The notes beneath the pieces are model-generated. The model saw only the letters and a program-made list of their open reading frames with translations, was not told the origin of the DNA and ran no database searches. This document shows positions 28,837 through 51,949 of a stretch of 64,000 nt of DNA, piece after piece. The position numbers and the translations under genes were made by a program. Source of the DNA: Pedobacter mucosus (GTDB lineage: Bacteria > Bacteroidota > Bacteroidia > Sphingobacteriales > Sphingobacteriaceae); contig NZ_CP087585.1 of NCBI RefSeq assembly GCF_022200785.1, positions 2,108,001 through 2,172,000 on the forward strand, read 5' to 3'. Every line of letters begins with the position of its first letter. The first letter of the stretch is position 1.

Positions 28837-30009
28837 CTAAAAATTAGGGTCGAAATTGAAATAAATTGGATTAGATAGCGTCACCATTTTTTCACTTAAA
28901 GCTACTGATTTTGGGACTTGAGGATAAGGTGCATTTTTTCCTTCGACAGTTACACGGTAATAAGTTCGCAATTTCACATCAGGTGTATCTGTAAATTGAA
29001 CCGTTGGCACTAAGCCTTTAACATCGAACGTATTAATTATTTTTCCATTTTTAATAATAGTAATGGTATAATTTTCATTTGGTGAAGTATTACCGATTAA
29101 TTGAACCTGAAATTTAACCGGATTGCCTGTTGAAACCGTATTATCTCCCATCATTATTTCGAATTTTCCGTTTTGCTTCGCGTCTGCATAAAACTCAACA
29201 TGCGGCGTAAATGGATTAGCACTAACGGCGACTTTCCCATGATCCAAGGCATCGACAACCGCTTGCAAACTTCGATTCTTTGCAAAAACCCATGTAGTTG
29301 GTGTTCCAACATAATTATATTCTGCCTGATAAGTGTTTGATGATGGCTTTTCTAAAGCAGTTGGAGTGCCGTGGTGCGCATCGCTTCCTCCTCTGCCAGT
29401 CATCATCCTTCCCGAAGAAAGCATATCATCCCAAATCATAATGGCGTTTGCATTTTTTGGCCAAAGAGAGGAGTTCCATACTTCAATCGATTTTACCAAA
29501 TCATAAGAAAACCCAAAATTATCCTTGCCGCTAGGATGATTGGCTGATAAATGAATGCCAAGTGAGTTTTTAACCTTACCAATATTTACATCTCGTTGAT
29601 CCCTAACATCAAACAATTTTTTGTGATCATATGGCTTTGCAGAGAACACATTTCCATGCCCCCTGGTAGTAGTCCATTCCGCTCCATATAATAAAAGCAA
29701 CGAATCAGATTTAAATTCTGGATCCGTCCAAGTGTGATTTGCAACATCGCCATCTACATGGTTATCATGGTCGGTTATGCATAAATAATCTAGTTTTACC
29801 AGTTTAGCGAAATTTATAATTTTCGATATAGCGTTATTTGTCGATTCTGTACTGTGCCTAGAATGAACATGCAAATCGCCTTTGAGCCATATACCTGAAG
29901 TATTTTTTATCGTTCGTATATTGTTATTTTCTTGGCCATTTACAATTCCATAACTTAAACCTAAAATGATAAATGTTAAAGCACAATAGTATTTTGGAAA
30001 AAAACGCAT
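28837..30009 (-). CDS. Exported PHP-domain metallohydrolase, CehA/McbA-like
   Basis: A 390-residue secreted protein with a signal peptide (residues 1-25). The PHP active site is visible: GDLHVHSRHS, CITDHDNH, HLSANHPSG, and GRGGSDAHHG, all metal ligands in this family. CehA/McbA proteins are phosphoesterase-like hydrolases, some acting on carbamates. As the last gene of the susC-susD-PI-PLC-phosphatase operon, a phosphodiesterase or phosphotriesterase role fits best. A strong hairpin at 30034-30053 separates it from the phosphatase gene. Confidence 0.87.
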   Translation of the reverse strand: MRFFPKYYCALTFIILGLSYGIVNGQENNNIRTIKNTSGIWLKGDLHVHSRHSTESTNNAISKIINFAKLVKLDYLCITDHDNHVDGDVANHTWTDPEFKSDSLLLLYGAEWTTTRGHGNVFSAKPYDHKKLFDVRDQRDVNIGKVKNSLGIHLSANHPSGKDNFGFSYDLVKSIEVWNSSLWPKNANAIMIWDDMLSSGRMMTGRGGSDAHHGTPTALEKPSSNTYQAEYNYVGTPTTWVFAKNRSLQAVVDALDHGKVAVSANPFTPHVEFYADAKQNGKFEIMMGDNTVSTGNPVKFQVQLIGNTSPNENYTITIIKNGKIINTFDVKGLVPTVQFTDTPDVKLRTYYRVTVEGKNAPYPQVPKSVALSEKMVTLSNPIYFNFDPNF

Positions 30010-30033
30010 AATGATTGAGTTACTTATATAAAA

Positions 30034-30053
30034 GCGCCTGCAAAAGCAGGCGC
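30034..30053 (-). terminator. GC-rich hairpin between phosphatase and PHP genes
   Basis: A perfect 8-bp stem (GCGCCTGC with GCAGGCGC) around an AAAA loop. On the minus strand it is followed by only four T bases, so it may be a partial terminator or an mRNA processing and stability element that lowers expression of the last gene. Confidence 0.6.
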
Positions 30054-30083: not shown

Positions 30084-31487
30084 TTAAACTTTTACTAAAA
30101 AAGCATCAGGCATTTCTGCTGCTTTAAGCATAAAATTATGCAGCTCATAATTTTTAACAAAAGGTTTTAGGTTTTCTGAGCCCGGTCCAAACATGGTTAG
30201 CTCCACATAATCACCCGAATGATTCATACCCGCCCATTGCACATCGGTATATTTACTTAAAATTTTCCCATATTCATAAAATGGAAGATTAGATTCATTG
30301 TAAAGTTGACCTGGAACAATATCTTTAAAATGCACTAAAAGAGATTTTACATCGGCCGACTTCATTACAAAACCCTGGTTTTCTTTTATGAGATCAACTA
30401 TTTTTTCCTCACTCAAAGACTGATTCAGCTGGGCCAAAAGCCAGGTATTGCTATGTTTGAAATTCTGCAGGCTATCAAATTTTTTATCCGTTTCATTGGC
30501 ATTGAACAAACCAGGGTTCGAATTGCCATGATCAGTGGTGATGATAACTAAAGTTTCCCCATCTTTTTCAGCAAATTCAATCACTTTTCCAACGGCTTCA
30601 TCAAATGCCAACTGATCGAAAATTAAACCACTTACATCATTCGAATGTGCTGCCCAATCTACCTTTCCACCTTCAACCTGTAATGCAAAACCTTCTTTAT
30701 TATCTTTCATTAATTCGATGGCTTTCATCGTCATCTCAGCCAAGGTTGGTGTGCTTTTTATCAATTCTGGATCGTGTAATCGATCCACTTCATAAGGCAA
30801 TCCATCTTCAGCAAACAAGCCTAAAACTGGTTTTGATTTATTCAAGGCAAGCATTTCAGCTCTATTTTCAGCAATGTTATAGCCTTGTGTTAAGTATTTT
30901 GGAATCAGGTTTCCACCTGCTCTTTTTTCACCGAAATATTTATGACCACCGCCCATCATTACATCAAACTTAAGTCCGAGGTACATTTCCGCGATAACGT
31001 CTTGTCCGCCGCGATTATTAATATTAATACAAAAACCTGCTGGCGTTGCATGGGTAATTGGCACCGTGGTTACGCAACCTACTTTTTTACCTTTCTCTTT
31101 AAACTTCTGAAGAATAGGTTGAGGTTTTTCTCCATTCGTCCGCACGTTAAGCGAACCATTATTAACCCGAATTCCACCGCCCCACGATGAACTTGCTGCA
31201 GCAGAATCAGTAACCATAGAATTTGCAGATGCTGTATCCATCAAAGCCCGAACCGCCTTGTTATCCCTGTATAAACCCAGCCATTTACTGCCTTTACCAA
31301 AAATACGATTCGAATATAGATCTGCCATATTCAATGTACCTATACTCATGCCATCACTCACCATCATAATGATGTTTTTGGCTTTTTTAGCGCCGAAAAT
31401 TGGTTGTGCAATTACTTCATTCAATCCTATAAAAGGCAAGCCTAAACCAGTTAGCAACCCGCCTTTTAACAATGATCTTCTATTCAT
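30084..31487 (-). CDS. Alkaline phosphatase, PhoA family, Tat-type signal
   Basis: A 467-residue phosphomonoesterase. The N-terminus MNRRSLLKGGLLTGLGLPF has a twin-arginine motif, so export by Tat is likely. The metal and nucleophile sites are IIMMVSDGMSIG, then MVTDSAAASSSWGGG (Ser nucleophile in D-S-A), HATPAGF, and TTDHGN near the third metal site. It releases Pi from esters in the periplasm. It starts 8 bases after the PI-PLC gene, so the two probably act in sequence. PhoA-type enzymes use Zn and Mg. Confidence 0.93.
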   Translation of the reverse strand: MNRRSLLKGGLLTGLGLPFIGLNEVIAQPIFGAKKAKNIIMMVSDGMSIGTLNMADLYSNRIFGKGSKWLGLYRDNKAVRALMDTASANSMVTDSAAASSSWGGGIRVNNGSLNVRTNGEKPQPILQKFKEKGKKVGCVTTVPITHATPAGFCININNRGGQDVIAEMYLGLKFDVMMGGGHKYFGEKRAGGNLIPKYLTQGYNIAENRAEMLALNKSKPVLGLFAEDGLPYEVDRLHDPELIKSTPTLAEMTMKAIELMKDNKEGFALQVEGGKVDWAAHSNDVSGLIFDQLAFDEAVGKVIEFAEKDGETLVIITTDHGNSNPGLFNANETDKKFDSLQNFKHSNTWLLAQLNQSLSEEKIVDLIKENQGFVMKSADVKSLLVHFKDIVPGQLYNESNLPFYEYGKILSKYTDVQWAGMNHSGDYVELTMFGPGSENLKPFVKNYELHNFMLKAAEMPDAFLVKV

Positions 31488-31495
31488 TTCTGCTC

Positions 31496-32566
31496 TTACT
31501 TTGTAAATAATGGATTTCGTCTAAAATATTTTCCATCAGCAAAGCTGATGGCATAATCTGATTTAAAATGACTGCTTTTTTTATAATAATCTGTCGTGAT
31601 GATTTGGGCGCCAGATTTACAAGCGGCCTCAAAATCACTCCAATCATTTCTTCTTGCTTGTTTGGTATCAGCGTCGGCTCTTGTTCTAATGATGTAACCT
31701 TTTTTTACAAGTTCAGGAATTTGGGTATCCTTTGGATTATTTCTGATCATTAAGGCAGCTTCAGGTGTTCCAGCTTCAGCATTTGCAAACATTACGCGAT
31801 TAATTAATGAAGGGTGACCTGCGATGTATGTCGAACGCTTTCTACCGGTCGCATCCAACACGAAAATAAATTTGCCTTTCGCCTTGCTTAATCTAGGCCA
31901 ATTTTGATGTAAAACAGCGTCTTCTAAAGTTTTGTATTTGCCCCTTACCGCATCAGGTGTGATTAAATGCTCTTTTCCCAAATTTTCAAGAATAAATGCA
32001 TCAAGCTTGTCAAAAGTATTAGCGGTAAATACTTCGGGCTGTGTAGATCCAACACGTTTTATCGAATCATCTTTTACCTCCAAAGTAATAAAAATAGGTG
32101 TATGTTCAGGATTGGCTTCTGACCAATTTTTTAGCTGTTGCAAAGCTGATTTGAATGTAAGTGCCGAAGATCGAAAATCTAAATCCGGAACGTGTAAAAC
32201 CTTAAAACCAGGTTGGTTCATTTCATGCTGCGCATCAAAATCAGGCTGACCTTTTACTAAATCAAAGCCTTTTGGATGTGCGTATTTCCCACCTTTTTCA
32301 TCAGCATAAACATCAATTTCCAAATTTCGCAATCCCATATCAAGTTGTTTTGGCATCGAGATATGCTCGTAATCTAAACTATTGGCCGCGTTCGAATCCG
32401 AAGCTTTTATCACCTTAAATAAAGCAGGATTAATCGCTTGTTTATAGCTATTATGCGAACCAATCACCTGAATTTGATTAATCGGCAAATCTTCTTTTTT
32501 AGTGACTAAGGCTATTGCTGGAAGAACCATTAAGAAACCGACGCAAGTAATTAGTCTCATTTTCAA
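31496..32566 (-). CDS. Ca-dependent phosphatidylinositol-specific phospholipase C1-like
   Basis: A 356-residue exported protein with a signal peptide. The first catalytic His is in IQVIGSHNSYKQAI near residue 36. Metal-binding acids are in GLRNLEIDVYADEKGG, and the second His is in FKVLHVPDLDF. These fit the Ca2+-dependent PI-PLC-C1 family, which cleaves phosphatidylinositol to diacylglycerol and inositol phosphate. Whether it takes PI, GPI-linked or other phosphodiesters is not known. It lies between susD (5-base gap) and alkaline phosphatase, so the inositol phosphate released could be dephosphorylated next. Confidence 0.85.
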   Translation of the reverse strand: MKMRLITCVGFLMVLPAIALVTKKEDLPINQIQVIGSHNSYKQAINPALFKVIKASDSNAANSLDYEHISMPKQLDMGLRNLEIDVYADEKGGKYAHPKGFDLVKGQPDFDAQHEMNQPGFKVLHVPDLDFRSSALTFKSALQQLKNWSEANPEHTPIFITLEVKDDSIKRVGSTQPEVFTANTFDKLDAFILENLGKEHLITPDAVRGKYKTLEDAVLHQNWPRLSKAKGKFIFVLDATGRKRSTYIAGHPSLINRVMFANAEAGTPEAALMIRNNPKDTQIPELVKKGYIIRTRADADTKQARRNDWSDFEAACKSGAQIITTDYYKKSSHFKSDYAISFADGKYFRRNPLFTK

Positions 32567-32571: not shown

Positions 32572-34167
32572 TTAATAACCAGGATTCTGTTTTAGATTTG
32601 CATTTAGCCTTAACTCATTTACAGGTATCGGATAAATTCTTCTGGTCAGATCTTTGTTCATAGAAAGGATGTCATTTGGTAATGGATACTCAGTTTCAAA
32701 CTGTCCGAAACGGATTAAGTCATTTCTTCTCCAAGCCTCCCAGCTAAACTCCCGAGCTCTTTCATCAAGCAAAGTATTCAAAGTTACCAAAGTTGCTGTT
32801 GCAGCGCCAACACGGTTTCTGATTTTATTTAAAAGAATTAAAGGGGTTTGCAGTTCTCCATTTACCGTTGTAGCGCTTGCACCTCTTAAAATTGCTTCAG
32901 CTTTCATCAACATTACATCTGCTAGACGTAAAACAGGCATGTCGTTTCCGTTTAATCTGGTTGCTTGGATGGCGTTTACATCTGGCCAATATTTTAATGA
33001 CCGAACACCTTTTGCCTGATCGGCTACGGTGTTTCCTAAATCCATTGGCTTACCTGGTTTTAAAATTAAATCCGGAGTGATTTCAATTTGCGTGGTTGTT
33101 CCTGCAACGAAAATCGGCTTAGTTAAATCTGGTTTGCGGTTCGCGTCTGGCGCATATTGCTTTCCAATTAACCAGAAACTATTACGGATATCGTTGGTTA
33201 AATTAAAACGGTTATAATATTCTGGAGTAGTACTCATGGCAATACTGAAACCTACATTTATACCATAAGATGCAGCTAAAGCCGGATAAAACCCGAACCT
33301 TGTAATCTGGTTACCAGGAATCTGCTGATCATAAGGAATCGCAAAAATAGTTTCGTTAATTAGCGGTCCGTTATTTACGTCGAAAATATCGCTGTACTTT
33401 ACATCTAATGCATAGTTGGTATTTTTCAAAATATTATCGGCCATAATAACCGCATCTGCATACCTAGGTTTTCCTGTGTAGACTTCCGCATTTAGATACA
33501 TTTTTTCTAATAATGCATAAGCCATTGCCTGTGTCGGCTTGCCATAAGTTGGTATGCGATTGGTATTGTCCTTTACCGGCAGTAGTGAAACGATTGTTAA
33601 AAGTTCCTTTTCAATAAATTCAAAAACTTTTTCTCTGGTTTGATTACCTGGAAGTGTACTTACTGGGAAAGCATCAATAATGGGTACATTACCATATAAA
33701 TCCATCATAAAGTAATAATACAAAGCCCTCATTGCCCTTATTTCTGCCAAACTGCTAGCTTTAGCGGCATCAGAAGCTGAAGATGCTTCGGTGAGGTTTA
33801 TTAGGCGATTGCAGTTATTAATGCCACCGAAACCCCACTGCCAAATATCTCTAACGTTTGGATGATCAATAGTCCATGTATGATAATGCAATTGACGGTA
33901 CTGACCTCCATCATCGAAATTTCCATCACGGGCAGGAATAATTGCCGCATCGGTAGAAAGCTCTTGCATTCTCCAATAAGGTACACCGTATTGTGAGGAA
34001 AGATTAGAGTACATTGTACCAAAAAGTGCTGCATAATCAGCATTGGTAACTGGAAAGTTTTCTTTAACGTATTGAGATTCTACATCTACATCAAGCTTAC
34101 TGCATGATTCGAAAACCATTAGGCAAGCTAGGATATTAAATAAAATTATAATTTTTTTCATCTTCAT
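32572..34167 (-). CDS. SusD/RagB-family lipoprotein of the phosphate operon
   Basis: A 531-residue surface lipoprotein with lipobox FESC in the signal peptide. It has SusD features: AEIRAMRALYYYFMMDLYGNVP, LLEKMYLNAEVYTGK, FSWEAWRRNDLIRFG and the ending RRIYPIPVNELRLNANLKQNPGY. It starts 5 bases after its susC partner. Its closest relative in the window is the SusD at 46739, sharing the order MMDLYGNVP and EAWxRNDxIRFG. The ligand is probably a phosphorylated compound, judging from the operon. Confidence 0.93.
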   Translation of the reverse strand: MKMKKIIILFNILACLMVFESCSKLDVDVESQYVKENFPVTNADYAALFGTMYSNLSSQYGVPYWRMQELSTDAAIIPARDGNFDDGGQYRQLHYHTWTIDHPNVRDIWQWGFGGINNCNRLINLTEASSASDAAKASSLAEIRAMRALYYYFMMDLYGNVPIIDAFPVSTLPGNQTREKVFEFIEKELLTIVSLLPVKDNTNRIPTYGKPTQAMAYALLEKMYLNAEVYTGKPRYADAVIMADNILKNTNYALDVKYSDIFDVNNGPLINETIFAIPYDQQIPGNQITRFGFYPALAASYGINVGFSIAMSTTPEYYNRFNLTNDIRNSFWLIGKQYAPDANRKPDLTKPIFVAGTTTQIEITPDLILKPGKPMDLGNTVADQAKGVRSLKYWPDVNAIQATRLNGNDMPVLRLADVMLMKAEAILRGASATTVNGELQTPLILLNKIRNRVGAATATLVTLNTLLDERAREFSWEAWRRNDLIRFGQFETEYPLPNDILSMNKDLTRRIYPIPVNELRLNANLKQNPGY

Positions 34168-34172: not shown

Positions 34173-37160
34173 TTAAAATGATGCACTTACACCAAAACTG
34201 AATGTTCTTGTTTTTGGATAATAATTATTATTGTCTATACCCGGAGTTAAGCCGCCTATATTTATTTCTGGATCAAGACCTGTGTAATTAGTGATTACAA
34301 AAAGATTGTTTGCCGTAACAAAAAGTCTGATGGCTTTTATTGATTGCGTTTTAGGTTTAATAGTATAACCTATGGTTGCGTTATCCAAACGTAGGTATGA
34401 ACCACTTTCCAAATAGCGATCAGATATTAAATAAGCGTTAACATCATTAGTTGATTCGCCTAATGTAGATTTTGGTATGTTTTGAAAAGTTGCATCAGAA
34501 GGATTATTTAAAGATGCTGCTGTAGCATTTAAAATTTTATTTCCTAAAACGCCACGAACAAGGAAATTCATATCCCAGTTTTTGTAGACGAAACTATTTG
34601 CCCAACCATAAATTAATTTGGGTTGTGCATCGCCTGCAATTTTATTATCAGTTATCAATGGTTGCGTAGCGATGGTTTGGCCAGCAGCATTAATATAAGT
34701 ACTTACTCCTGCAGCATTTTTACCTGCATAATTCCATAAGCTAAAAGTTCCTAATGCATAACCAGGTTGTACAATCTGGCTATAATTTCCAGACTGACCT
34801 TTACCACCAAGTTGAGCAGTTGGAATAGAGGAAATTTTATAAAAATCATCAGATAAGGTTACTATCTTATTCTTATTGGTGGCAATATTTGGCGAGGTTG
34901 TCCACCTAAAATCATCAGTTTTTACAACAACAGCATTTAAGGCAAATTCTACACCCGTATTTTTTATTTTACCAACATTAGCAGTAATTGTCGGCAAGAA
35001 AAATTGAGTAGTAGAAACTTCGTATCGATCATAAATTAAATCAGAAGTTTGTTTCACATAAAAGTCAACCGAACCAGTTAATCTATTATTAAATAAGCCA
35101 AAATCTAAACCGATGTTCGTTGTTGCCGTACTTTCCCATTTTAAATCTGGATTTTCATTTCTTACCGGACCAATCGCATTACTGATATTACCATTGTTTA
35201 AAAATTTATTATTCCCAATTGGAGTGCCGTAAATCAGCAAAGAAGAAAAGGCGTTAAAACCTAAACTATTACCCGAAACACCATAACCCGCACGAAGTTT
35301 TAAATCACTAACGACCGGAACAGCTTTCATAAAATCTTCACCGATGATTCTCCAACCTGCAGATACCGCAGGGAATAAACCCCAGCGGTTATTTCTACCA
35401 AATGCTGATGAACCATCATTTCTTAGCGAAGCTTGAAAAAGGTATTTTTCATTATAGTTGTATTGAACTCTGCCGTAATATGATATTAATCTTAAAGTAG
35501 ATATAGGATCTTCATTAAACGCAATTTGAGATAGTAATGTTGGGTTGGAAAGAAATAAATTATTATAGCCTAAATTATCATTTGAGAAATTTTGTGTCGT
35601 TACCCCAAAACCATCATTGGTTCTGTCTTCTTGCCATGAGTAACCTCCGAGCAATTTTAAACTATGTTTTCCAAAAGTTTTATCGTAGTTAAAGTAACCC
35701 TCTAATACCTGACTTTTATTTAAAATATCAACTTTTCTTGCTTGTCCGTTAACACTTCTTGCCAATCCAGATTGACTATTTAAATAAGTGCTATAGTTAT
35801 TTTGATCTCTCTGCGAGGAAACACTTGCCGTAAACCTTAAGCCATCGATAATATTGAGCTGCGCCATTCCATTAATCAATGTTTTGTTGTTAAGGTTATC
35901 GATATCATTATTATCTACAATTGACAATGGATTACGCGTACCACTACCAGTACGATTATAATTTTCTTTATAAGTGCCATCGGTATTAAACGGGCTAACC
36001 GTTGGCAAAAAGAAAAGCATGTTTGGAAGTGCTTGCGACTGGTAAATATCAGAGCTTTTAGAATTGCTATTGGTGATGGTTAAACCAAGTTTCAAGCGAT
36101 CATTGAAAAACTTTTCATTTAAGTATCCCCTAACAATTGTCCTTTTTAATGAAGTATTTTTTAAAATCCCTTTATTATCAAGATAATTGACACTTGCACC
36201 ATAATCTGATGATTGTCCGGAACCGCCGAAAGATACATTATGGTTTTGCGAATAGCCCGTTCGTTCCAGTAGCGACTGCCAATTGGTATCTGAACCATCA
36301 TCATCAACAGCATTGATAACTTTTTTATTATCGGTAAGGTATTGCCTTAACTCTGGCGCTGAAAGCATATCGTACTTTTTCGAAACCTTTTCAACTGCCG
36401 CATACCCATTGTAAGATAACCGGGCCTGTCCGTTTTTTGAACGTTTTGTTGTTACGATAATTACCCCATTTGCTGCTCTAGAACCGTAAATAGCAGTTGA
36501 AGAGGCATCTTTTAGGATATCAATATTTTCGATATCTGAAGGTGCAAGCAAATCTATCGAAGCACCTGGAACCCCATCAATAACATAAAAAGGTTCTTGT
36601 GCTGCACCCTCTCTTAATGTAGATGGACCACGTAAAATAGTTGAAGGCTTTGAATTTGGATCGCCACTTTTGGTAACATTTAAGCCTGCAACCTTACCTT
36701 GTAGTAATTGAGCAGGATTAACCATTACACCTTGATTAAATTCTTCTGATTTGATGGAAGTAACCGCACCTGTTAAATCTTTTTTATTTGCCGTTCCATA
36801 ACCAATTACCACCACATCCTCCAATGTTTTATTATCAGGAATAAGGGTTACGTTAATTTTGGTCTGAGTACCAACAATAATTTCCTTCGTTAATCCACCG
36901 AGCATCGAAAAAGTTAATACATCGCCGTTTTTAGCTTGAATAGAATAAGTACCATCCGAATTCGTGGATGTTCCGCCGGGCATTCCTTTTATTCTAACGG
37001 TAACTCCTGGAACAGATTGATTTGTTTCATCAATCACCTTTCCAGTAATTTTTTTACTCTCCTGGGCAAAAACTGTTATCGAAAAGAAAAGCAGCGTAAT
37101 GGCAAGCCATTGCCTTATTGCAGAAATAGAAAAATAATTGGACTTGTAATTTTTTTTCAT
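34173..37160 (-). CDS. SusC/RagA TonB-linked transporter of the phosphate operon
   Basis: A 995-residue TonB-dependent transporter. Signal peptide about 1-33, then a carboxypeptidase-like domain (KKITGKVIDETNQSVPGVTV), plug (DVVVIGYGTANKKDLTGAV, EPFYVIDGVPGASID, LKDASSTAIYGSRAANGVII) and barrel ending RTFSFGVSASF. It heads the operon with SusD, PI-PLC, alkaline phosphatase and a PHP hydrolase. This suggests uptake of phospholipid-derived or organophosphate ligands under phosphate limitation. A Pho-like box precedes it. Confidence 0.94.
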   Translation of the reverse strand: MKKNYKSNYFSISAIRQWLAITLLFFSITVFAQESKKITGKVIDETNQSVPGVTVRIKGMPGGTSTNSDGTYSIQAKNGDVLTFSMLGGLTKEIIVGTQTKINVTLIPDNKTLEDVVVIGYGTANKKDLTGAVTSIKSEEFNQGVMVNPAQLLQGKVAGLNVTKSGDPNSKPSTILRGPSTLREGAAQEPFYVIDGVPGASIDLLAPSDIENIDILKDASSTAIYGSRAANGVIIVTTKRSKNGQARLSYNGYAAVEKVSKKYDMLSAPELRQYLTDNKKVINAVDDDGSDTNWQSLLERTGYSQNHNVSFGGSGQSSDYGASVNYLDNKGILKNTSLKRTIVRGYLNEKFFNDRLKLGLTITNSNSKSSDIYQSQALPNMLFFLPTVSPFNTDGTYKENYNRTGSGTRNPLSIVDNNDIDNLNNKTLINGMAQLNIIDGLRFTASVSSQRDQNNYSTYLNSQSGLARSVNGQARKVDILNKSQVLEGYFNYDKTFGKHSLKLLGGYSWQEDRTNDGFGVTTQNFSNDNLGYNNLFLSNPTLLSQIAFNEDPISTLRLISYYGRVQYNYNEKYLFQASLRNDGSSAFGRNNRWGLFPAVSAGWRIIGEDFMKAVPVVSDLKLRAGYGVSGNSLGFNAFSSLLIYGTPIGNNKFLNNGNISNAIGPVRNENPDLKWESTATTNIGLDFGLFNNRLTGSVDFYVKQTSDLIYDRYEVSTTQFFLPTITANVGKIKNTGVEFALNAVVVKTDDFRWTTSPNIATNKNKIVTLSDDFYKISSIPTAQLGGKGQSGNYSQIVQPGYALGTFSLWNYAGKNAAGVSTYINAAGQTIATQPLITDNKIAGDAQPKLIYGWANSFVYKNWDMNFLVRGVLGNKILNATAASLNNPSDATFQNIPKSTLGESTNDVNAYLISDRYLESGSYLRLDNATIGYTIKPKTQSIKAIRLFVTANNLFVITNYTGLDPEINIGGLTPGIDNNNYYPKTRTFSFGVSASF

Positions 37161-37619: not shown

Positions 37620-37943
37620 TTATAATTTTTGCTTCATTGTAAACTCTTTTAATCCAATATATTCAGAGATTACGTTTAGCATTAGCTCATTGTAAATATT
37701 CATTTTCTCTCCAGATCTGCATATTGAAATTATTGCAGCATCATCGTTTTTATTTCTCGAAACAGAGTACTCAAATGATTTCGAGTAAAGCCATTCAGGT
37801 AAATTGTCTTTGTCTAGATTTATGGTAAAATAAACAATTGTGATTCCTGGTTTATCCTTATCAGTTTTTAATCCATAAGTTATTGGAAAATCAAATATGC
37901 CCTGCTCAAATAAATCTACAGATACACTTACAACTTTTTTCAT
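37620..37943 (-). CDS. Hypothetical protein, about 107 residues
   Basis: Start set at the Met at 37943 (MKKVVSVSVDLFEQGIFDF); four more codons are open upstream. A soluble alpha/beta protein with no motif I know. One of the LacI-like operator sites (38053-38067) lies about 110 bases before it, so it might belong to that regulon, or the site may act elsewhere. Confidence 0.55.
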   Translation of the reverse strand: MKKVVSVSVDLFEQGIFDFPITYGLKTDKDKPGITIVYFTINLDKDNLPEWLYSKSFEYSVSRNKNDDAAIISICRSGEKMNIYNELMLNVISEYIGLKEFTMKQKL

Positions 37944-38052
37944 CAATACAATCACTTATAACAGTAGTACAACTTATTTTAACAACATTTACTGCTAGCT
38001 AAATTGTAAATAAAAATAGAAGATAGCTGGCATTCCCATCAATATATTTGCG

Positions 38053-38067
38053 TAAACGTTTAAGTAG
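38053..38067. promoter_or_regulatory. LacI-type operator-like site 1
   Basis: TAAACGTTTAAGTAG contains the perfect palindrome TAAACGTTTA. Close copies lie at 41266-41280 and 42641-42655. It is downstream of the GH28 stop codon and upstream of the 37943 gene. Confidence 0.5.
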
Positions 38068-38085
38068 TTATCATATATTTAAATA

Positions 38086-41265: not shown

Positions 41266-41280
41266 TTACTTAAACGTTTT
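41266..41280. promoter_or_regulatory. LacI-type operator-like site 2
   Basis: On the minus strand this reads AAAACGTTTAAGTAA, differing from site 1 at two of 15 bases. It lies between the LacI gene's stop codon and the symporter's start codon, so it most likely controls the symporter-GH28 operon. Confidence 0.6.
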
Positions 41281-41300
41281 CGGACGGATAATTAAAGCTG

Positions 41301-43683: not shown

Positions 43684-46600
43684 ATGAGAATTAATTTTAC
43701 AAGCTTAAAGTATGGCTGCTTATTTTTGCTGCTTTTACTTATCGGGCAATCTTTTGATAATGTTTACGCCCAAACCGAACGTAAAATCTCTGGAAATTTA
43801 TTAGACAATACCAACCAGCCAATTATTGGTGCATCTGTTTCTGTACAAGGAACAAAAAAAGCAACGGTTACCGCAGAAGCTGGAGCCTTTACAATTTCTG
43901 CGAAAACAGGAGATGTTCTTTTATTTACCTTTATGGGTTATGAAACTAAAAAAATTACTATCGGAACGGCATCAAACTATAAAGTATCGATAGTAGAAAC
44001 CAGCTCAAATCTTACCGAAGTTGTAGTTGTAGGTTATGGCACAACAACCCGGAAAACACTCTCAAGTGCCATTACTTCTTTAAAACCAGAAGAATTAAAT
44101 AAAGGTGCAATAGCGGATGTTGGACAACTATTACAGGGTAAAGTTGCTGGCATGAACATTAGTGCTAGTGGAGATCCAAATAAACCTGCGGCAGTTATTC
44201 TTCGTGGTGCATCAACAGTGAATAGCCCTGGTGCTCCTTATTATGTAATTGATGGAATTCCGGGTGCAGATATTGCAGCCATTGCTCCAGCTGATATTGC
44301 ATCCATTGATGTTTTGAAAGATGCTGCAGCAACAGCAATTTATGGTAACAGAGCTGCAAGCGGCGTAATTATGGTTACCACCAAACGTGGTAGAAAAGGG
44401 GAATCGAAAGTTGCATATAGCGGATATTTTGGCACCGAAAAAGTAAGCAGTCAGTTAGATTTGATGGATGCAGATCAATTAAGGGCTTTTTTAACAGCAA
44501 ATAAATCGGCTTTCTCTCCAAATGATGATTTGGGTGCCAATACAAATTGGATGAAATCCATCGAACGCTCTACCGCTTATTCTCAAAATCATAACCTTTC
44601 TTTTAATGGAGGTTCTGATCATACAATTTATAGTGCAAGTATTAATTATTTTAACAAAGAAGGTATTCTTTCTCAAAGTTCGCTCGAAAGAATTATTGGT
44701 CGTTTAAATATTGATCAATTTGCCTTTGACGATAAAGTAAAGTTCAGCTTAAATTTATCAAACTCGAGCAGCAAATCAAACAATGTACCTTTACAAAACA
44801 TTGTATTGCTTCAGGCAGCAAAGCGTTTGCCAGTTTCACCAATATTTAATGCCGATGGTTCGTACTTCGAAAATTTAAATAATTCGGGATATTTTAATCC
44901 AAAAGCAATTACTGGTAATGCCCAAGACGAAACAAAATATAATGTATTATTGGGTGGTTTTAATACGGAAGTAAAACTTCCATTTGGATTTACTTATAAC
45001 ATTAATTTATCTTACCAAAAAACGACTGCTGCACATGGCGAATTTTATAGTAGTTATTTTGGCAAGTATCCAACATCAAATTTTTATAATAATCCAGATC
45101 CAGGCGTTGGAATAGCACATACACTTATCGGAAGTCTTTTCGGCTCAAACGGTTCTGCATTGCGTAGTAATTTCGAAAACTCTACTAAAACACTCGAAAC
45201 TTTTTTAACCTGGAATAAAAAACTTGGCGATCATTCTTTAAATGCAGTATTGGGCTATACTTATCAGGATAATGTTTATGGAGATGGGTTTCAAACATCA
45301 AGCACTAACTTCCCAACAGATAACATCGGATTTTCAAACCTAACCTTAGGAAATCCATATGCAATTTCATCCTACAGAATAAATTTAGGAAACGATTTAA
45401 CGTATGGAAGAATATTGATGATCTCCGATTTCTTTAGAGTTAATTACAGCTATAAAGATAAATACCTTTTCCAAGGATCTATTAGAAGAGATGGAAGTTC
45501 TGTATTCGGCGATAACAACCAGTGGGGCTACTTCCCTTCAGCAGGTTTAGCCTGGAGAATCAGCGAAGAAAACTTTATGAAAAATCAGTCGGTTGTTAGT
45601 GATTTAAAACTTCGTTTAAGTTACGGTGTAACTGGTAATTCATCAGGAATTGGCGCTTACACAGGTAAATTAATTTATGGAATCAGCGGAACATATTATA
45701 ACAATGGCATTCAAGCTGCTGCTTATGCACCTGTACAAGGCTCTAATCCAAATTTGAAGTGGGAACGAACCGCAACTAAAAATGCTGGTCTTGATTTTGG
45801 GTTATTTAAAAACAAGGTTACAGGTAGTGTTGATGTTTATGATAAAAATACTACAGACATGCTTTTTAAATATAATGTTTCAGCATCACTTGTACCAGGT
45901 GGCGCAATATGGGCAAATGGCGGAAGTATTAATAATAAAGGTATTGAGGTAAGTTTAAATGTTACCCCAGTTTCTACTAAAAACTTTTCATGGTCTACCA
46001 GCTTAAATGGCGCATACAACAAAAATAAAATTACCAGCTTAAAAGGTCCTTATTCAAATGGAGATTCGGTTCGATATTCTGATCCTGAAGGACCTGGACA
46101 AACTAATGCAACCTTACAAATCTTAAAGGTAGGTTATCCATTAGGCCAGTTTTTCACTTTAAAATATGCTGGCAAAGATGCAAATGGAAATTCAACTTTC
46201 TTTAAACGTGATGGTTCTACAACAACAAGTCCTGGTATTGGTACTGATTATTTTTACTTAGGCAGTGCCCAACCAAAAGTTTTAATGGGCTGGAGCAATA
46301 CCTTTAAGTATAAAGATTTTGATCTAAATATTTTTATAAGAGGAACATTCGGCAATAAAATATTTAATGCCACTCGAGCAGATTTATCTTACACCGCAGG
46401 AGCAACGGTTAATAATATTTTGAATAGCGCTGCTGATGATAAAATTTCTGATACTCGGAATTCTTATTACTCTGATAGATACATCGAAAACGGATCTTAT
46501 GTTCGTTTAGACAATGCAACATTGGGTTATAACTTCAAAACACCTTTCAAATACGTTAGTAATATCCGTTTATATGCTTCTACTAATAACCTTTTTACCA

Positions 46601-46722
46601 TAACTGGCTATAAGGGTATAGATCCTGAAGTTAACCAGGGTGGTGTTGCACCAGGTGTGGATTATAATAATTTCTATCCAAAAACCCGCACCTTTTTATT
46701 CGGTGCTAATGTATCATTTTAA
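43684..46722 (+). CDS. SusC/RagA TonB-linked transporter of the GH89 locus
   Basis: A 1012-residue TonB-dependent transporter. Signal peptide about 1-29 (cut near NVYAQ), carboxypeptidase-like domain (RKISGNLLDNTNQPIIGASV), plug (EVVVVGYGTTTRKTLSSAI, APYYVIDGIPGADIA, LKDAAATAIYGNRAASGVIM) and barrel ending RTFLFGANVSF. It is close in sequence to the phosphate-operon SusC, with the same plug and barrel order and the same SYGVTGNS-type segments. It starts 46 bases after inositol oxygenase. The ligand is probably a GlcNAc- or inositol-containing glycan or glycolipid head group. Confidence 0.94.
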   Translation: MRINFTSLKYGCLFLLLLLIGQSFDNVYAQTERKISGNLLDNTNQPIIGASVSVQGTKKATVTAEAGAFTISAKTGDVLLFTFMGYETKKITIGTASNYKVSIVETSSNLTEVVVVGYGTTTRKTLSSAITSLKPEELNKGAIADVGQLLQGKVAGMNISASGDPNKPAAVILRGASTVNSPGAPYYVIDGIPGADIAAIAPADIASIDVLKDAAATAIYGNRAASGVIMVTTKRGRKGESKVAYSGYFGTEKVSSQLDLMDADQLRAFLTANKSAFSPNDDLGANTNWMKSIERSTAYSQNHNLSFNGGSDHTIYSASINYFNKEGILSQSSLERIIGRLNIDQFAFDDKVKFSLNLSNSSSKSNNVPLQNIVLLQAAKRLPVSPIFNADGSYFENLNNSGYFNPKAITGNAQDETKYNVLLGGFNTEVKLPFGFTYNINLSYQKTTAAHGEFYSSYFGKYPTSNFYNNPDPGVGIAHTLIGSLFGSNGSALRSNFENSTKTLETFLTWNKKLGDHSLNAVLGYTYQDNVYGDGFQTSSTNFPTDNIGFSNLTLGNPYAISSYRINLGNDLTYGRILMISDFFRVNYSYKDKYLFQGSIRRDGSSVFGDNNQWGYFPSAGLAWRISEENFMKNQSVVSDLKLRLSYGVTGNSSGIGAYTGKLIYGISGTYYNNGIQAAAYAPVQGSNPNLKWERTATKNAGLDFGLFKNKVTGSVDVYDKNTTDMLFKYNVSASLVPGGAIWANGGSINNKGIEVSLNVTPVSTKNFSWSTSLNGAYNKNKITSLKGPYSNGDSVRYSDPEGPGQTNATLQILKVGYPLGQFFTLKYAGKDANGNSTFFKRDGSTTTSPGIGTDYFYLGSAQPKVLMGWSNTFKYKDFDLNIFIRGTFGNKIFNATRADLSYTAGATVNNILNSAADDKISDTRNSYYSDRYIENGSYVRLDNATLGYNFKTPFKYVSNIRLYASTNNLFTITGYKGIDPEVNQGGVAPGVDYNNFYPKTRTFLFGANVSF

Positions 46723-46738: not shown

Positions 46739-48409
46739 ATGAAAAAGATAATATCAGGAATATTAGCCTTAATAACAGGAGCTTTAATGTTCACATCGTG
46801 CCAAAAGCTCGATATACCCATCACCACTGAACTTACGCCAGAATCATATCCACAAACTGCAGCACAGCTAACTTCTGCTTCTGGGCCAGTTTATATTAAT
46901 TTAAGAAGTGATTATGGCACAACTTATTGGTTCCTACAAAGTTCTTCCTCAGACGAATCTATGCTCGGCATTTTTGGATCAGATTGGATTGATGGTAACA
47001 AATACCTCGAATTACATCGCCACACTTGGACGAAAGATAATGCATGGGTTGCCGCCGGTTGGTCATACTTAACCAATATTATTGGTACAGCTAATCAAAC
47101 CATATCAATTGTGGGTCAATCTGCACCTGCCGGAGCATCTAAAAATACGAGTATTGCAGAGCTTAAAACTATGAGGGCACTTGCATATTACATGATGATG
47201 GATTTATACGGGAATGTTCCATTAGATACACTTTATGGAGCAACTGATTTGAAAACAAATTCGCCCAGAGCACAGGTTTTTAACTATGTAGAAAGTGAAT
47301 TAAAAGCTGCTATTCCTTATTTAAAATCTACTTCCGGAATGGCAACTTACGGTTTGCCTACAAAATACCTTGCTTATTCTATTTTAGCAAAAATGTATTT
47401 AAACGCCGTAGTTTACACCGGAACTGCCCGTTATGATGATTGTATTGCTGCTTCTGATCAAATTATAAGTTCAGGATTATACAGCATTGAACCTATGTCT
47501 ACCTATCTTCAAATGTTTTATCCAACAAATGGACCCAACCAAAAAGAATTTATTTTTGCAATTCCGTACGATGCATCAACCGCTACTGGAAATATGATCC
47601 ACGGACGTTATGATGTAAATAGAAATCTCGGCATTCGCTATCAATATTCTGGCTCAACACCTGGTTCATTCGTAAATCCAGTAATGAATCAAAGTGCCGG
47701 CGGAGGATTAATCAACAATAAACCAAGCGGCCCAAGAATGACCACTTCAGAATTTTATAGTAATTTTAATGATCCAAATGATGTGCGTAACAAACAATGG
47801 CTTACAGGATTGCAGACTTGGCAAGATGGAAGCCCGATTATGGTAAGTACAACTAATTTAGGTTACAATCAATTTTATACAGGTGCCGCTCCAGCTGGAG
47901 TTTTCGTTTATCAATTAAACTTAACACCATTGACTTCATCGCGTTTAGGGGCAACCACTTATGATTTGGGCAAGGATGAGATTGCCTGGAATACAGGTTA
48001 CAGAAACATTAAATTTTTGCCAGATTACACCAACCCAATCAATCGTAACCAAAATAACGATGCACCAATTTTTCGTTTTTCAGACATTTTATTAATGAAA
48101 GCTGAAGCGATTTTTAGAGGAGGAACGCCAACACTTGGCGCAACCGCTTTATCACTTGTAAACGGTGTTCGTTCAAACCGTACCACATCTCCTGCTTTAA
48201 CGGCGCTTACCTTAGATGTTTTATACAATGAGCGTAGCAAAGAATTTGCTTGGGAAGCTTGGCACCGTAACGACATGATCAGATTTGGTAAATTCGAAAC
48301 CAGTTATGGCTTATCGAAAACAAATACTGATACCTACCGCAGAATCTTCCCGATTCCGAGTACAGCTATCGCTACAAATAATACGCTGGTTCAAAACCCA
48401 GGTTACTAG
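46739..48409 (+). CDS. SusD/RagB-family lipoprotein of the GH89 locus
   Basis: 556 residues when started at the Met at 46739, which opens the lipoprotein signal MKKIISGILALITGALMF with lipobox TSC. The frame extends upstream into susC but that part is not signal-like. SusD features include AELKTMRALAYYMMMDLYGN, AILAKMYLNAVVYTGTARYD, FAWEAWHRNDMIRFGKFE and the ending PIPSTAIATNNTLVQNPGY. Pairs with the SusC at 43684 (16-base gap). Confidence 0.93.
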   Translation: MKKIISGILALITGALMFTSCQKLDIPITTELTPESYPQTAAQLTSASGPVYINLRSDYGTTYWFLQSSSSDESMLGIFGSDWIDGNKYLELHRHTWTKDNAWVAAGWSYLTNIIGTANQTISIVGQSAPAGASKNTSIAELKTMRALAYYMMMDLYGNVPLDTLYGATDLKTNSPRAQVFNYVESELKAAIPYLKSTSGMATYGLPTKYLAYSILAKMYLNAVVYTGTARYDDCIAASDQIISSGLYSIEPMSTYLQMFYPTNGPNQKEFIFAIPYDASTATGNMIHGRYDVNRNLGIRYQYSGSTPGSFVNPVMNQSAGGGLINNKPSGPRMTTSEFYSNFNDPNDVRNKQWLTGLQTWQDGSPIMVSTTNLGYNQFYTGAAPAGVFVYQLNLTPLTSSRLGATTYDLGKDEIAWNTGYRNIKFLPDYTNPINRNQNNDAPIFRFSDILLMKAEAIFRGGTPTLGATALSLVNGVRSNRTTSPALTALTLDVLYNERSKEFAWEAWHRNDMIRFGKFETSYGLSKTNTDTYRRIFPIPSTAIATNNTLVQNPGY

Positions 48410-48513: not shown

Positions 48514-49737
48514 ATGGAACTGCTGCAAGCCATACATCAAAACATTCCACATCAAAAACAAAGATTAGTTTCATTGGATGTTTTACGGGGTTTTGATATG
48601 TTTTGGATCATTAGCGGAGAAGGTATTTTCCATGGTTTGGCAAATGGCGTTATGGCCAAACATTCGCTCGTTAGAAACCCAATAAATTGGACCATTGCCA
48701 CCAATAAGAATCTTAACTTTTTCGAAAATTTATCAATTGGCATTAGCAACCAATTACATCATTCACCTTGGAACGGTTTTACTTTTTACGATTTAATTTT
48801 TCCGCTTTTTATCTTTATTTCTGGCGTATCAATGCCATTCTCCTATCAAAAATATTTTGAAGAGAAAGATAAAAACACTAACTCTTCAAAAAAAATTTAT
48901 GCTGCGCTGATTAAAAGGACGCTGATTTTAATTTTATTAGGCGTAATTATAAATGGATTATTTAAATGGAACGGTTAAGAAAATACCCGCTTTGCAAGTG
49001 TACTCGGTCGCATTGCGCTTTCAACTTTTTTTGCTGCATTAATCTATCTAAATTTTTCATTACCTAAACAAATTATCTGGTTTGCAGCTATTTTGATCGG
49101 CTATTACTTTATAATGAATTATTTTCCTGTTCCCAATTTTGGTGCTGGAGTATTTACACCAGAAGGAAGTCTATCTTCTTATTTTGATAGACAGTTTTTG
49201 CCTGGAAAACTGCACCGTGTAATTTATGATCCTGAAGGCCTGCTAAGCACAATCCCTGCAATTTGTACAGCCATGCTCGGGATTTTTACGGGTACTTTTT
49301 TGAAATCAACATCACCAAATTTCAGCCCGCAGAAAAAGGCAATCGTCTTGTTTTTTGTAGGCATCTTAAATATTTACGTTGGCTTAGCATGGAGCCTGAT
49401 TTTTCCTATTAACAAAACCATGTGGACGAGCACCTTCGTTCTCTTTTCAGGTGGATGGAGCTTGATTTTGCTAGCCGTATTTTATTATGTAATCGATGTT
49501 AAAAACATAAAAAAATGGAGCCTACCTTTTATCTGGATTGGTACAAACTCCATTTTAATTTATGTTTGTGCTCATGGATTGATCAATTTTGAATCAACTG
49601 CCCAGTTCCTTTTTGGAGGCATTATCAACGCCATTCCTACAATTTGGCAACAAGCTTGTTTATGGATAGGCGTACTTATAATACAATTGTTTCTACTAAG
49701 ATTTCTCTATGAGAAAAAGTGGTTCCTAAAAATTTAA
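48514..49737 (+). pseudogene. Heparan-alpha-glucosaminide N-acetyltransferase-like protein, broken by one in-frame stop
   Basis: A 407-codon membrane protein frame of the HGSNAT/DUF5009 type, interrupted by a single TAA at 48976-48978. The frame continues unbroken on both sides: FKWNG, stop, then ENTRFASVLGRIALSTF. The first part has RLVSLDVLRGFDMFWIISGE and the conserved HHSPWNGFTFYDLIFPLFIF with the likely catalytic His. The second part supplies the remaining helices. HGSNAT acetylates terminal alpha-glucosamine so that alpha-N-acetylglucosaminidase (GH89) can remove it. GH89 is the next gene, 1 base away. One base change (for example from CAA) explains the stop; a sequencing error is also possible. 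Confidence 0.85.
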
Positions 49738-49738
49738 T

Positions 49739-51949
49739 ATGAAACTAAAACACGTCATTTCCGCAGCGATTCTCATTTTATTTAGTTTTAACGCAAGCGC
49801 ACAGACTTACTTAGAAACATCAAAAAAACTGATTGAGCGGGTTCTACCGAAACATTATCGTTCCTTTTTAACGGAAAGTATAATAAGCAATAATGGTAAA
49901 GATGTTTTCGAAATAGAAAGTAAAAACAATCAAATTATACTCCGCGGGAATAATGGTGTAGCGCTTAGTTCTGCACTTTATTATTACCTAACAGAATATG
50001 CCCACTGCCAAATTACCTGGAACGGAACGAATTTAAATTTGCCACAAAACTTACCAAAAATTTCACAAAAAGTTAGGAAAGAAACGCCTTACGAATATCG
50101 ATATTATTTAAACTATTGCACTTTTAATTATAGCATGAGCTGGTGGGACTGGCCACGTTGGGAAAAGGAAATAGATTGGATGGCCTTACATGGAATAAAT
50201 ATGCCATTAGCCATTACTGGTGAAGAATATACTTGGTATCTGCTATATAAAGAAATGGGATTTACAGACCTGGATTTACAGGATTTTTTTACTGGTCCGG
50301 CTTATTTTTCTTGGTTTTGGATGGGAAATATCGATGGTTGGGGTGGCCCACTTCCTGTTGATTGGATGAAAAGTCATTTCGAACTGCAAAAGAAAATTTT
50401 GAACAGAGAACGGGCCTTAGGTATGAAACCTGTGCTCCCGGCTTTTACTGGCCATGTACCTGCGGCATTTAAAAAGAAGTTTCCTAATGCAAAACTGAAA
50501 GCCACAAATTGGACAAATGGTTTTCCAGATACTTACATCCTCGATTCAGAAGACCCAATGTTCGCTTTGATAGGTAAGAAATTTCTTCAAAAGCAAACCG
50601 AGATGTTAGGTACAGATCACCTTTATTCGGCAGATACTTTTAATGAAAACGAACCACCATCATCAGAACCAGAATATTTAAGCAAGTTAAGTGCTAGAAT
50701 TTATGATGGGATGTCGCAAGCCGACCAAAAAGCGATTTGGGTTATGCAAGGATGGCTATTTTATAGTGATAGAAAATTTTGGAAAGAGGCTCAAACCGAG
50801 GCGCTTTTAAAAGCAGTTCCCAATGATAAGATGATTTTGCTTGATCTTGCTACAGAGATTGAGCCCGTTTGGAAACGAACTGAAGGATTTTACGGAAAAC
50901 CGTGGATTTGGAACATGCTGCACAATTTTGGTGGCAATACTAATTTATTCGGCAGAATGGATGTCGTTGCCAATGCTCCAACTGAAGCATTGAAAAATCC
51001 AAAAAGCGGAAAAATGAATGGTATCGGACTAACCATGGAAGGCATAGAGCAAAATCCAGTTTTGTATGAGCTTATGATGGAAAATGTTTGGCGGTCTGAA
51101 CCAATTGATCTTAAAATTTGGCTGCCGAAATTTGTTTTAAATCGCTACGGAAAAGTGAATCAAAATGCGCTTAAAGGATGGGAAATATTAAGAAAAACCG
51201 TTTATAATGTTCCTCAAGAAAAGTATGTAAGAGATGGAGCAGAATCAATACTTCAAGCCAGACCTACTCTCGATTCTTCATCTCGCTGGGCAAGAACTAC
51301 CCTTAACTATAACGAACGCGACCTTCTACCAGCTTGGGACGAATTTATAAAAGCCACACCTATTTGTAAACAAAGCGACGGTTTTCAATATGATCTTGTG
51401 GATATTACCAGACAAGTTATGGCCAATTATGCACTTCCTATCCAAAGAAAGATCATTGCTGCTTATCAAAATAAAAATTTGAAAAGCTTCGAAATCGAAA
51501 GCAAAAACTTCATCGCCTTAATTGATGATTTGGATAGGTTACTGGCATCTAGAAAAGATTTTATGTTAGGTCCGTGGGTAAATAGTGCTCGAAAATGGGG
51601 CAACAACTCAAAGGAAAAGGCTCTTTATGAAATGAACGCAAAAGATTTAATCACACTTTGGGGAGACGCAAACAGCCCACTAAATGAATACGCTTGCAGA
51701 CAATGGAGCGGACTTCTAAGTGATTTCTATAAGCCCAGATGGGAAATTTTCTTTAACCGTATGGAAGAATCTTTGAATAAGAAAACGCAATTCAATTTAG
51801 ATAAGTTTAACGATGATATTAAATCTTGGGAGTGGAGGTGGGTAAACCAACGAAAAGATTATGCTTTAACTCCTATCGGAAGTTCTACTGAGATTGCAGT
51901 AGAAATGCACAAAAAGTACCGTAAACTGATGGCGGAGGCGCACAAATAG
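49739..51949 (+). CDS. Alpha-N-acetylglucosaminidase, GH89 (NAGLU-like)
   Basis: A 736-residue exported enzyme with a signal peptide (cut after NASAQ). GH89 features are WWDWPRWEKEIDWMALHGIN near residue 138, LAITGEEYTWYLLYKEMG, PAYFSWFWMGNIDGWGGPLP near 190, the catalytic-region SADTFNENEPPSS and the acid in GIGLTMEGIEQNP. It hydrolyses terminal alpha-linked GlcNAc, as in heparan sulfate or GlcNAc-alpha-inositol/uronate units. It directly follows the acetyltransferase-like gene. Exact substrate unknown. Confidence 0.93.
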   Translation: MKLKHVISAAILILFSFNASAQTYLETSKKLIERVLPKHYRSFLTESIISNNGKDVFEIESKNNQIILRGNNGVALSSALYYYLTEYAHCQITWNGTNLNLPQNLPKISQKVRKETPYEYRYYLNYCTFNYSMSWWDWPRWEKEIDWMALHGINMPLAITGEEYTWYLLYKEMGFTDLDLQDFFTGPAYFSWFWMGNIDGWGGPLPVDWMKSHFELQKKILNRERALGMKPVLPAFTGHVPAAFKKKFPNAKLKATNWTNGFPDTYILDSEDPMFALIGKKFLQKQTEMLGTDHLYSADTFNENEPPSSEPEYLSKLSARIYDGMSQADQKAIWVMQGWLFYSDRKFWKEAQTEALLKAVPNDKMILLDLATEIEPVWKRTEGFYGKPWIWNMLHNFGGNTNLFGRMDVVANAPTEALKNPKSGKMNGIGLTMEGIEQNPVLYELMMENVWRSEPIDLKIWLPKFVLNRYGKVNQNALKGWEILRKTVYNVPQEKYVRDGAESILQARPTLDSSSRWARTTLNYNERDLLPAWDEFIKATPICKQSDGFQYDLVDITRQVMANYALPIQRKIIAAYQNKNLKSFEIESKNFIALIDDLDRLLASRKDFMLGPWVNSARKWGNNSKEKALYEMNAKDLITLWGDANSPLNEYACRQWSGLLSDFYKPRWEIFFNRMEESLNKKTQFNLDKFNDDIKSWEWRWVNQRKDYALTPIGSSTEIAVEMHKKYRKLMAEAHK

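Follow-up and report, generated by a model that had tools for sequence, protein, structure and literature searches.

A myo-inositol oxygenase and GH89 locus of Pedobacter mucosus as a probable utilization locus for inositol phosphoglycolipid head groups

A 64,000-nucleotide stretch of the Pedobacter mucosus genome (contig NZ_CP087585.1, positions 2,108,001 to 2,172,000; hereafter the window) carries a locus in which a myo-inositol oxygenase (MIOX) lies with a GH89 alpha-N-acetylglucosaminidase. We propose that this locus is of the polysaccharide utilization locus (PUL) type and that its substrate is an inositol phosphoglycolipid head group, most likely that of plant glycosyl inositol phosphorylceramide (GIPC), a reading to which we give a probability of roughly 60%. 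Two units were resolved by Pfam and NCBIfam searches. The genes of unit A (28837-37160), all on the minus strand, encode SusC, SusD, PI-PLC-C1, an alkaline phosphatase and a PHP/CehA-type metallohydrolase. Unit B (38086-51949, both strands) encodes LacI, an SGLT-type symporter (SSF) and GH28 on the minus strand (38086-42308), and MIOX, SusC, SusD, a NagX/HGSNAT-like acetyltransferase and GH89 on the plus strand (42750-51949). By Pfam, the window families thus include two SusC/SusD pairs and one LacI regulator. A first-pass annotation had named these families where we found them, and all but the acetyltransferase scored far above the Pfam cut-offs. The SusC/SusD pair and the glycosidases predicted to be exported, as is usual for a PUL, were recognised in unit B, export being judged from hydrophobic N-termini and protein location in general from a crude hydropathy scan.

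MIOX (42750..43637, plus strand) scored 364 bits against PF05153 and covered it in full (positions 2-249 of 249). It has no signal-like N-terminus and is probably cytosolic. The protein aligned with the solved inositol oxygenase 2huo across the HD motif and the other His/Asp motifs, in which we take the metal ligands of 2huo to lie, and an HD-type metal site was present. MIOX is predicted to oxidise myo-inositol to D-glucuronate. GH89 (49739..51949, plus strand; PF05089, PF12972, PF12971) has a signal-like N-terminus and contains the NAGLU domains, with the barrel at 492 bits; its best PDB match was the human NAGLU entry 4xwh (569 bits). The FNE and EGI regions, which presumably hold the two catalytic Glu residues, were conserved in 30 orthologues. 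Between these two genes lie the SusC-like receptor (43684..46722) and the SusD-like protein (46739..48409, with the start chosen at MKKIISG in an open reading frame (ORF) that opens at 46640), both on the plus strand. The minus strand carries the LacI-family regulator (41301..42308; PF00356, PF00532) and the vSGLT-like SSF symporter (39564..41192; PF00474, 232 bits), a candidate myo-inositol importer. A search of the whole genome, a single contig of 4.93 Mb, gave a single match apiece for MIOX, PI-PLC, GH89 and UxaC; the sole GH89 and the sole MIOX found therefore lie 6 kb apart. IolD gave no match above the cut-off in this genome, so MIOX is likely its inositol route. The hexuronate route is represented by UxaC and by KDG kinase-like and KDPG aldolase-like genes.

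The unit is conserved in relatives. We compared 80 named MIOX loci (L numbers below denote fetched loci), of which the nearest 32 (L032-L063) comprise 31 labelled Pedobacter and one metagenome-assembled genome of Sphingobacteriaceae; in the named collection, the closest MIOX neighbours of the window were Pedobacter species, with up to 92% identity. MIOX, SusC, SusD, NagX, LacI and GH28a (the GH28 of unit B) were present in all 32, SSF in 31, and GH89 and a purple acid phosphatase, the latter identified from one cluster member, in 28 each. Thus the linkage of MIOX with GH89, whose absence from relatives had been named beforehand as grounds for rejection, was kept in 28 of the 32 Pedobacter-type loci and was rearranged in other genera. 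Over the 80 loci, SSF was near MIOX in 67. The loci of relatives contained additional genes, namely the purple acid phosphatase, GH92, a second GH28 (GH28b) and UxuA, the last beside the MIOX locus in 8/32. GH92 (clusters c9/c10) fell within the fetched stretch of 21/32, mostly behind GH89 or NagX and on the LacI side in L061 and L063. Two of the 11 loci without GH92 in the stretch were read further, and both showed GH28b and then GH92 behind GH89 (L035, as L180-181, and L062, as L178). The former belongs to P. jejuensis and the latter to Pedobacter sp. Leaf194, both of which have the complete set.

The same parts occurred in other orders in Mucilaginibacter, Desertivirga, other genera and a further family (f4), which favours a shared function over common ancestry alone. 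One arrangement (L182+L115) reads GH28a-GH92-GH28b-LacI, followed by SusC-SusD-GH28b-MIOX-GH89-NagX-PIPLC, the latter run (L115) keeping to one strand and spanning no more than 13 kb. Another, from f4 (L183-184), reads SusD-GH92-lyase-like-DUF4861-PIPLC-metallophosphatase-hybrid sensor-MIOX-GH2-NagX-SSF-GH28b-GH28a-GH27. PI-PLC therefore shares one gene run with the set in these two genomes, and in a third it lies with both GH28s and GH92 (L205+L215: SusC-SusD-699 aa-PIPLC-GH28b-GH92-GH28a). The 699-aa ORF between SusD and PI-PLC in the third (L205:6894-8993) has no Pfam match, although every other gene of that run could be assigned, and extends to a few bases from the fetched edge. All eight fetched f4 loci (L183-184, L185-L191) contained NagX, SSF, GH28a and GH28b near MIOX, and the ORF of about 1,050 aa beside MIOX was GH2 in the two tested. 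Additional glycosidases in MIOX or GH28a loci included two arabinofuranosidases (L208), GH2 (L207, L184, L185) and GH27 (L184), which fit longer GIPC heads. For the flanking genes, Pfam families were tallied over 61 of 108 candidate ORFs and 4 others, and the top 25 of 84 families were considered. In genome G066, two MIOX-GH89-SusCD loci (L208 and L209) lie 20 kb apart, and two long FG-GAP/ASPIC-UnbV proteins flank the second.

GH28a (38086..39501, minus strand; PF00295, 120 bits) has a signal-like N-terminus and is a candidate uronidase on the inositol glycan. Its assignment rests also on alignment A3, a structure model and a fold match; the beta-helix fold and the catalytic Asp residues of GH28 polygalacturonases are present. 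Compared with 3jur, the GHG histidine is replaced by Ser258 and R-L-K by G-I-Q (289-291), so that neither the histidine nor the R-x-K motif, which we take to be the galacturonate-recognising motifs, is kept. Both replacement stretches are conserved across GH28a. Orthologues of GH28a occurred in 25/40 MIOX-positive and 0/40 MIOX-negative genomes (within the genus, 17/20 and 0/20), indicating that GH28a goes with inositol use and not with general pectin use. Its activity could be that of an alpha-glucuronidase.

A shared operator-like palindrome connects several of these genes. In the window, the site upstream of MIOX (TTTACGTAATCGTTTAAGTAAA, 42635..42656) scored 34.3 of 34.6 bits and is a 22-bp palindrome, TTTACnTAAnCGnTTAnGTAAA, whose end lies 93 bp from MIOX. 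Two further copies were found at 41265..41286 (13.0 bits), 72 bp upstream of the symporter, and at 38047..38068 (17.7 bits), which is 17 bp past the stop codon of GH28 and ahead of an ORF of 107 aa. These three were the only matches above 11 bits in the 64 kb, and five mononucleotide shuffles peaked at 10.8. The matrix was built from 46 MIOX upstream regions, excluding that of the window, and the scores of those 46 are high by construction; a palindrome preceded MIOX in 60/80 loci, 14 of them outside the matrix. Copies also preceded SSF, in 11 of the Pedobacter-type loci (on the LacI side) as well as in L077; GH92 had one in front of it in L063, L072 and L073, and GH28b in L074. In L032 and L034, the palindrome preceded a unit of a small ORF (c15) and UxuA, an enzyme that performs a step of glucuronate use. 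Across the genome, a search with two mismatches returned background levels (1-5 matches per genome, against 0-3 for a reversed control pattern), and at 0-1 mismatch this genome had only the MIOX palindrome. The palindrome adjoins the regulator and precedes several units, as in a LacI regulon, and is therefore a putative operator. We do not claim that the PI-PLC unit is under the same LacI: the palindrome at 38047 lies 886 bp before its SusC, and the PI-PLC loci of relatives had none.

The 107-aa ORF (37620..37943, minus strand) resembles the c15 ORF of L032/L034 by eye. The c15 ORF (for example, L032:4779-5159) is small and conserved, occurring in 9/80 loci; in L032 and L034 it lies between the palindrome and UxuA, and its counterpart in the window lies behind a palindrome and before the PI-PLC unit.

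To our knowledge, no glycan other than that of inositol phosphoglycolipids calls for alpha-GlcN(Ac) removal, a mannosidase, a uronidase-type enzyme, a phosphatase, an inositol-type importer and an inositol oxygenase together. The enzyme set fits GIPC heads of the form (Ara, Gal, Man)-GlcN(Ac)-alpha-1,4-GlcA-alpha-1,2-inositol-P-ceramide (GlcN, glucosamine; GlcNAc, N-acetylglucosamine; GlcA, glucuronic acid). According to one source, plant GIPC has GlcNAc or GlcN linked alpha-1,4 to GlcA, which is linked alpha-1,2 to inositol-1-P-ceramide; Arabidopsis leaf GIPC bears mannose in place of GlcN(Ac), and tobacco GIPC carries galactose and arabinose further out (PMC8099651). Other papers describe abundant hexosamine (free amino) forms in barley grain (PMC12201980), GT64 enzymes that add mannose or GlcNAc to GIPC (PMC9113257), and a Bacteroides GH89 that cuts GlcNAc-alpha-1,4-GlcA (PMC8225759).

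In the route we infer for GIPC heads, in which the order of steps and each specificity are predictions, the freed head group would enter the periplasm by way of SusC/SusD. The outer sugars would be removed by GH92, NagX with GH89, and the accessory glycosidases. Specifically, GH92, found in relatives, would remove mannose; NagX would acetylate free alpha-glucosamine with cytosolic acetyl-CoA, a step needed for the GlcN forms; and GH89 would take off GlcNAc. GH28a and/or GH28b might then cut the alpha-linked glucuronic acid from inositol, and a phosphatase would free myo-inositol, namely the purple acid phosphatase in relatives and the alkaline phosphatase of the PI-PLC unit here. The SGLT-type symporter would import myo-inositol, MIOX would oxidise it to D-glucuronate, and both this and the released glucuronate would enter the UxaC hexuronate route. 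Control of the unit may lie with the LacI regulator, acting at the palindromes. The head groups might be supplied by PI-PLC, through cleavage of the phosphodiester bond in the (de-glucuronylated) lipid or in phosphatidylinositol (PI) and glycosylphosphatidylinositol (GPI).

In this strain, PI-PLC belongs to its own SusCD unit next door. The PI-PLC-C1 protein (31496..32566, minus strand), of the Ca2+-dependent phosphoinositide phospholipase C family, scored 436 bits against PF16670 and covers the whole domain (positions 2-329 of 329); its similarity to the solved PI-PLC 3h4w was weak (30 bits). On the same strand lie the SusC-like TonB receptor (34173..37160; PF00593, PF07715), the SusD-like protein (32572..34167; PF07980), the alkaline phosphatase (30084..31487; PF00245, 240 bits) and a PHP/CehA-McbA family metallohydrolase with a hydrophobic signal-like N-terminus (28837..30009; PF02811; NCBIfam NF038032, 135.9 bits, cut-off 80), a fifth gene that had been overlooked. 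In 42 PI-PLC loci, SusC and SusD preceded PI-PLC on the same strand in 34, a homologue of the metallohydrolase (cluster 3) was found in 15, the alkaline phosphatase (cluster 4) stood beside PI-PLC in 14, and a purple acid phosphatase was present in 2. Near the PI-PLC unit, at 21503-26810, genes for a PHO4 phosphate transporter and for a phosphoesterase (PF04185, with propeller-type domains) possibly form a phosphate-gathering neighbourhood.

Among 400 genomes of the order, 72 contained both PI-PLC and MIOX, 80 MIOX only, 23 PI-PLC only and 225 neither, one weak match each (G125, MIOX; G091, PI-PLC) being omitted. MIOX exceeded the cut-off in 152/400 genomes of this order and in 29/395 of a phylum sample, in which PI-PLC likewise occurred in 29 and both in 11. 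The adjacency of the PI-PLC and MIOX units, on which the first-pass annotation had relied, holds in the window but is not general, since the two lie within 12 kb in 2/72 genomes with both, one of which is the window.

The acetyltransferase (48514..49737, plus strand) proved to be present with an interrupted frame. A single in-frame TAA (48976-48978) breaks it into a pair of ORFs, 154 and 214 aa long, of which the first matched HGSNAT_cat at 25.0 bits (cut-off 22) and the second had no Pfam match. Both matched NCBIfam NagX (NF046061), with 100.6 and 200.3 bits, under the cut-off of 480. The intact relative in L032 scored 322.7 bits, likewise under this cut-off. NagX is intact in relatives, as all 39 ORFs of its cluster measure 399-422 aa.

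Several observations weigh against the proposed use of GIPC heads. Besides the broken NagX frame, GH92 and the purple acid phosphatase were not found at the window locus, the rest of the genome not having been searched for copies. The NagX homologue of L115 had no Pfam match at 1e-3. No GH89 was found in the eight fetched f4 stretches, and the 48 more distant MIOX loci mostly lacked the set (SusC in 13, NagX 7, phosphatase 6, GH89 4 and GH28a 4, compared with SSF in 36 and LacI in 30). Many of these keep MIOX and the symporter alone, perhaps for free inositol; MIOX-SSF-LacI resembles a core for the use of inositol that later gained the glycan module. GH106, GH97 and GH39 in L212 would also fit pectin-type or other glycans, and we know of no alpha-glucuronidase in family GH28. 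Of the 72 genomes with both, 29 have PI-PLC and MIOX on the same contig, and in 70 the two lie on different contigs or more than 25 kb from each other; the co-occurrence counts ignore kinship between genomes, and a palindrome of at least 12 bits was present in 0/40 fetched PI-PLC loci (L119-L158). Finally, PI-PLC chemistry uses the inositol 2-OH, which GlcA blocks in GIPC, so either the lipid would have to be deglycosylated before PI-PLC acts on it, or PI-PLC targets PI/GPI.

The last point leads to GPI anchors, or fungal or protozoan inositol phosphoglycolipids, as the target. PI-PLC would free Man3-GlcN-inositol-P, GH92 would strip the mannoses, NagX and GH89 would take GlcN as GlcNAc, and the phosphatase and MIOX would handle inositol. 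GPI has free alpha-GlcN and a free inositol 2-OH and fits PI-PLC better than GIPC does, PI-PLC stands in a gene run with MIOX-GH89-NagX (L115) and with MIOX, GH92 and NagX (L183-184), and GH92 adjoins it in L149. We nevertheless regard GPI as an unlikely target. It leaves unexplained the two GH28 types tied to MIOX, the arabinosidases and galactosidases of some loci, which a GPI core would hardly need, and the UxuA beside a quarter of the Pedobacter-type loci. Between the two substrates originally suggested, GPI anchors and plant GIPC, the comparison thus favours GIPC. A rather improbable alternative is that the units are independent neighbours, one a PI-PLC unit that scavenges phosphate or inositol lipids and the other a unit for a glycan whose sugars have no bond to inositol (heparan, mucin or a side chain of pectin), while free inositol would reach the shared glucuronate pool by way of MIOX. 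This would account for the PI-PLC and MIOX units being mostly unlinked, for PI-PLC loci without the palindrome (L115, where PI-PLC lies inside the MIOX run, has one of 14.6 bits) and for the many MIOX-SSF loci that lack the remaining set; one regulator could serve unrelated inputs because all the end products are uronates. Yet NagX, GH89, phosphatase, GH92 and GH28 have remained with MIOX in rearranged loci from several genera and two families. In three Pedobacter-type loci read as far as GH92 (L176-177, L178 and L180-181), all ORFs of at least 130 aa between GH28a and GH92 belong to the set, so that no sulfatase or heparinase lies there. As heparan contains neither mannose nor inositol, heparan as sole substrate is disfavoured. 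In the window, heparinases, sulfatases and GH88 were absent from the 20 ORFs scanned at 27.3-58.4 kb, the remaining ORFs, here and in relatives, having been annotated in part.

Compatible with any of these substrates, the locus here may be a decaying remnant of a system that works in relatives, with inositol uptake and oxidation left together with GH89 for pre-acetylated heads. The in-frame stop in NagX and the lack of GH92 and the purple acid phosphatase among the locus genes suggest such partial decay. The NagX stop could be a sequence error, however, the other genes are open, the motifs of GH28a, GH89 and MIOX are kept, and so are the palindromes; we consider a remnant possible, at clearly less than even odds. 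The pathway for GlcN(Ac)-inositol lipids that had been proposed for this region thus finds support in the genes that accompany the set in relatives (those for the phosphatase, GH92, the second GH28, UxuA and PI-PLC), and is weakened by the acetyltransferase interrupted here and by a PI-PLC neighbourhood that is not general; its substrate is a prediction from these gene sets. Mycothiol is a GlcN-inositol thiol, and a DinB/mycothiol-transferase-like gene lies at 28166 in the window; mycothiol was dropped as a substrate, as none of 111 loci gave a DinB match. Elsewhere in the window, two tRNA-Cys(gca) genes (8615-8686 and 10857-10929, minus strand) lie 2.2 kb apart.

Some MIOX loci that show no GH89 contain a family of about 600 aa without a Pfam domain, here called X599 (L096:15763-17562, L095:17078-18874, L183:7338-9134). 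It has 3619 homologues at E 1e-3, and its model (pLDDT 81) matches PDB glycosaminoglycan and alginate lyases (best E 1e-9, TM about 0.5); X599 is possibly a uronate-glycan lyase that replaces GH89. DUF4861 proteins adjoin this lyase-like family in two distant MIOX loci (L183:9220-10077, L095:18884-20197).

The locus recalls the lysosomal heparan pathway, in which HGSNAT and then NAGLU, a membrane N-acetyltransferase and a GH89, act in sequence on alpha-GlcN, and among solved structures the window GH89 is nearest to human NAGLU. It differs in being bacterial, in SusCD import, in MIOX and GH28, and in the GH92 and phosphatase of relatives, and the core of three relatives' loci has no sulfatase. 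With the PULs of Bacteroidota it shares SusC/SusD pairs, glycosidases with signal-like N-termini, a local regulator and a sugar symporter. Unlike these, it carries an inositol oxygenase and phosphatases, with a phospholipase added in some genomes, for which reason the input is likely a glycolipid head rather than a polysaccharide. The Iol pathway also uses myo-inositol as a carbon source; here IolD is not above the cut-off, and MIOX would yield glucuronate instead. A 2022 survey reports Iol clusters in 3% of Bacteroidetes species and, in the part available, names inositol oxygenase only for fungi (PMC9430895). The Bacteroides GH89 BT3590 acts on the GlcNAc-alpha-1,4-GlcA linkage of GIPC; it was tested on heparosan oligosaccharides, and the word "inositol" is absent from that paper (PMC8225759). 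We found no report of a bacterial GIPC-utilization locus in the open-licence PMC papers searched. The parts of the window are known families and PULs a known kind of locus; the substrate class and the role of GH28 would be new.

GIPCs account for up to 40% of the total sphingolipids of the plant plasma membrane, according to a published account (PMC8099651). The locus makes a bacterial route for GIPC heads testable, with defined enzymes, a candidate operator and named Pedobacter species, such as P. jejuensis, in which the set is complete. A broader, tentative proposal, which we place just short of an even chance, is that the use of GIPC heads is widespread and overlooked in Bacteroidota, that GH28a and GH28b are new alpha-glucuronidases acting on GlcA-alpha-1,2-inositol, and that X599 replaces GH89 on 4-substituted GlcA in loci lacking GH89. 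If the GH28 enzymes split GlcA-alpha-1,2-inositol, the uronate and the inositol of the head group would both lead to glucuronate. The enzymes of the locus could become tools for GIPC analysis. If the proposed use of GIPC heads is correct, it would give a reason why some Bacteroidota carry MIOX, point to a possible new GH28 activity, and tie plant membrane turnover to carbon and phosphorus cycling in soil.

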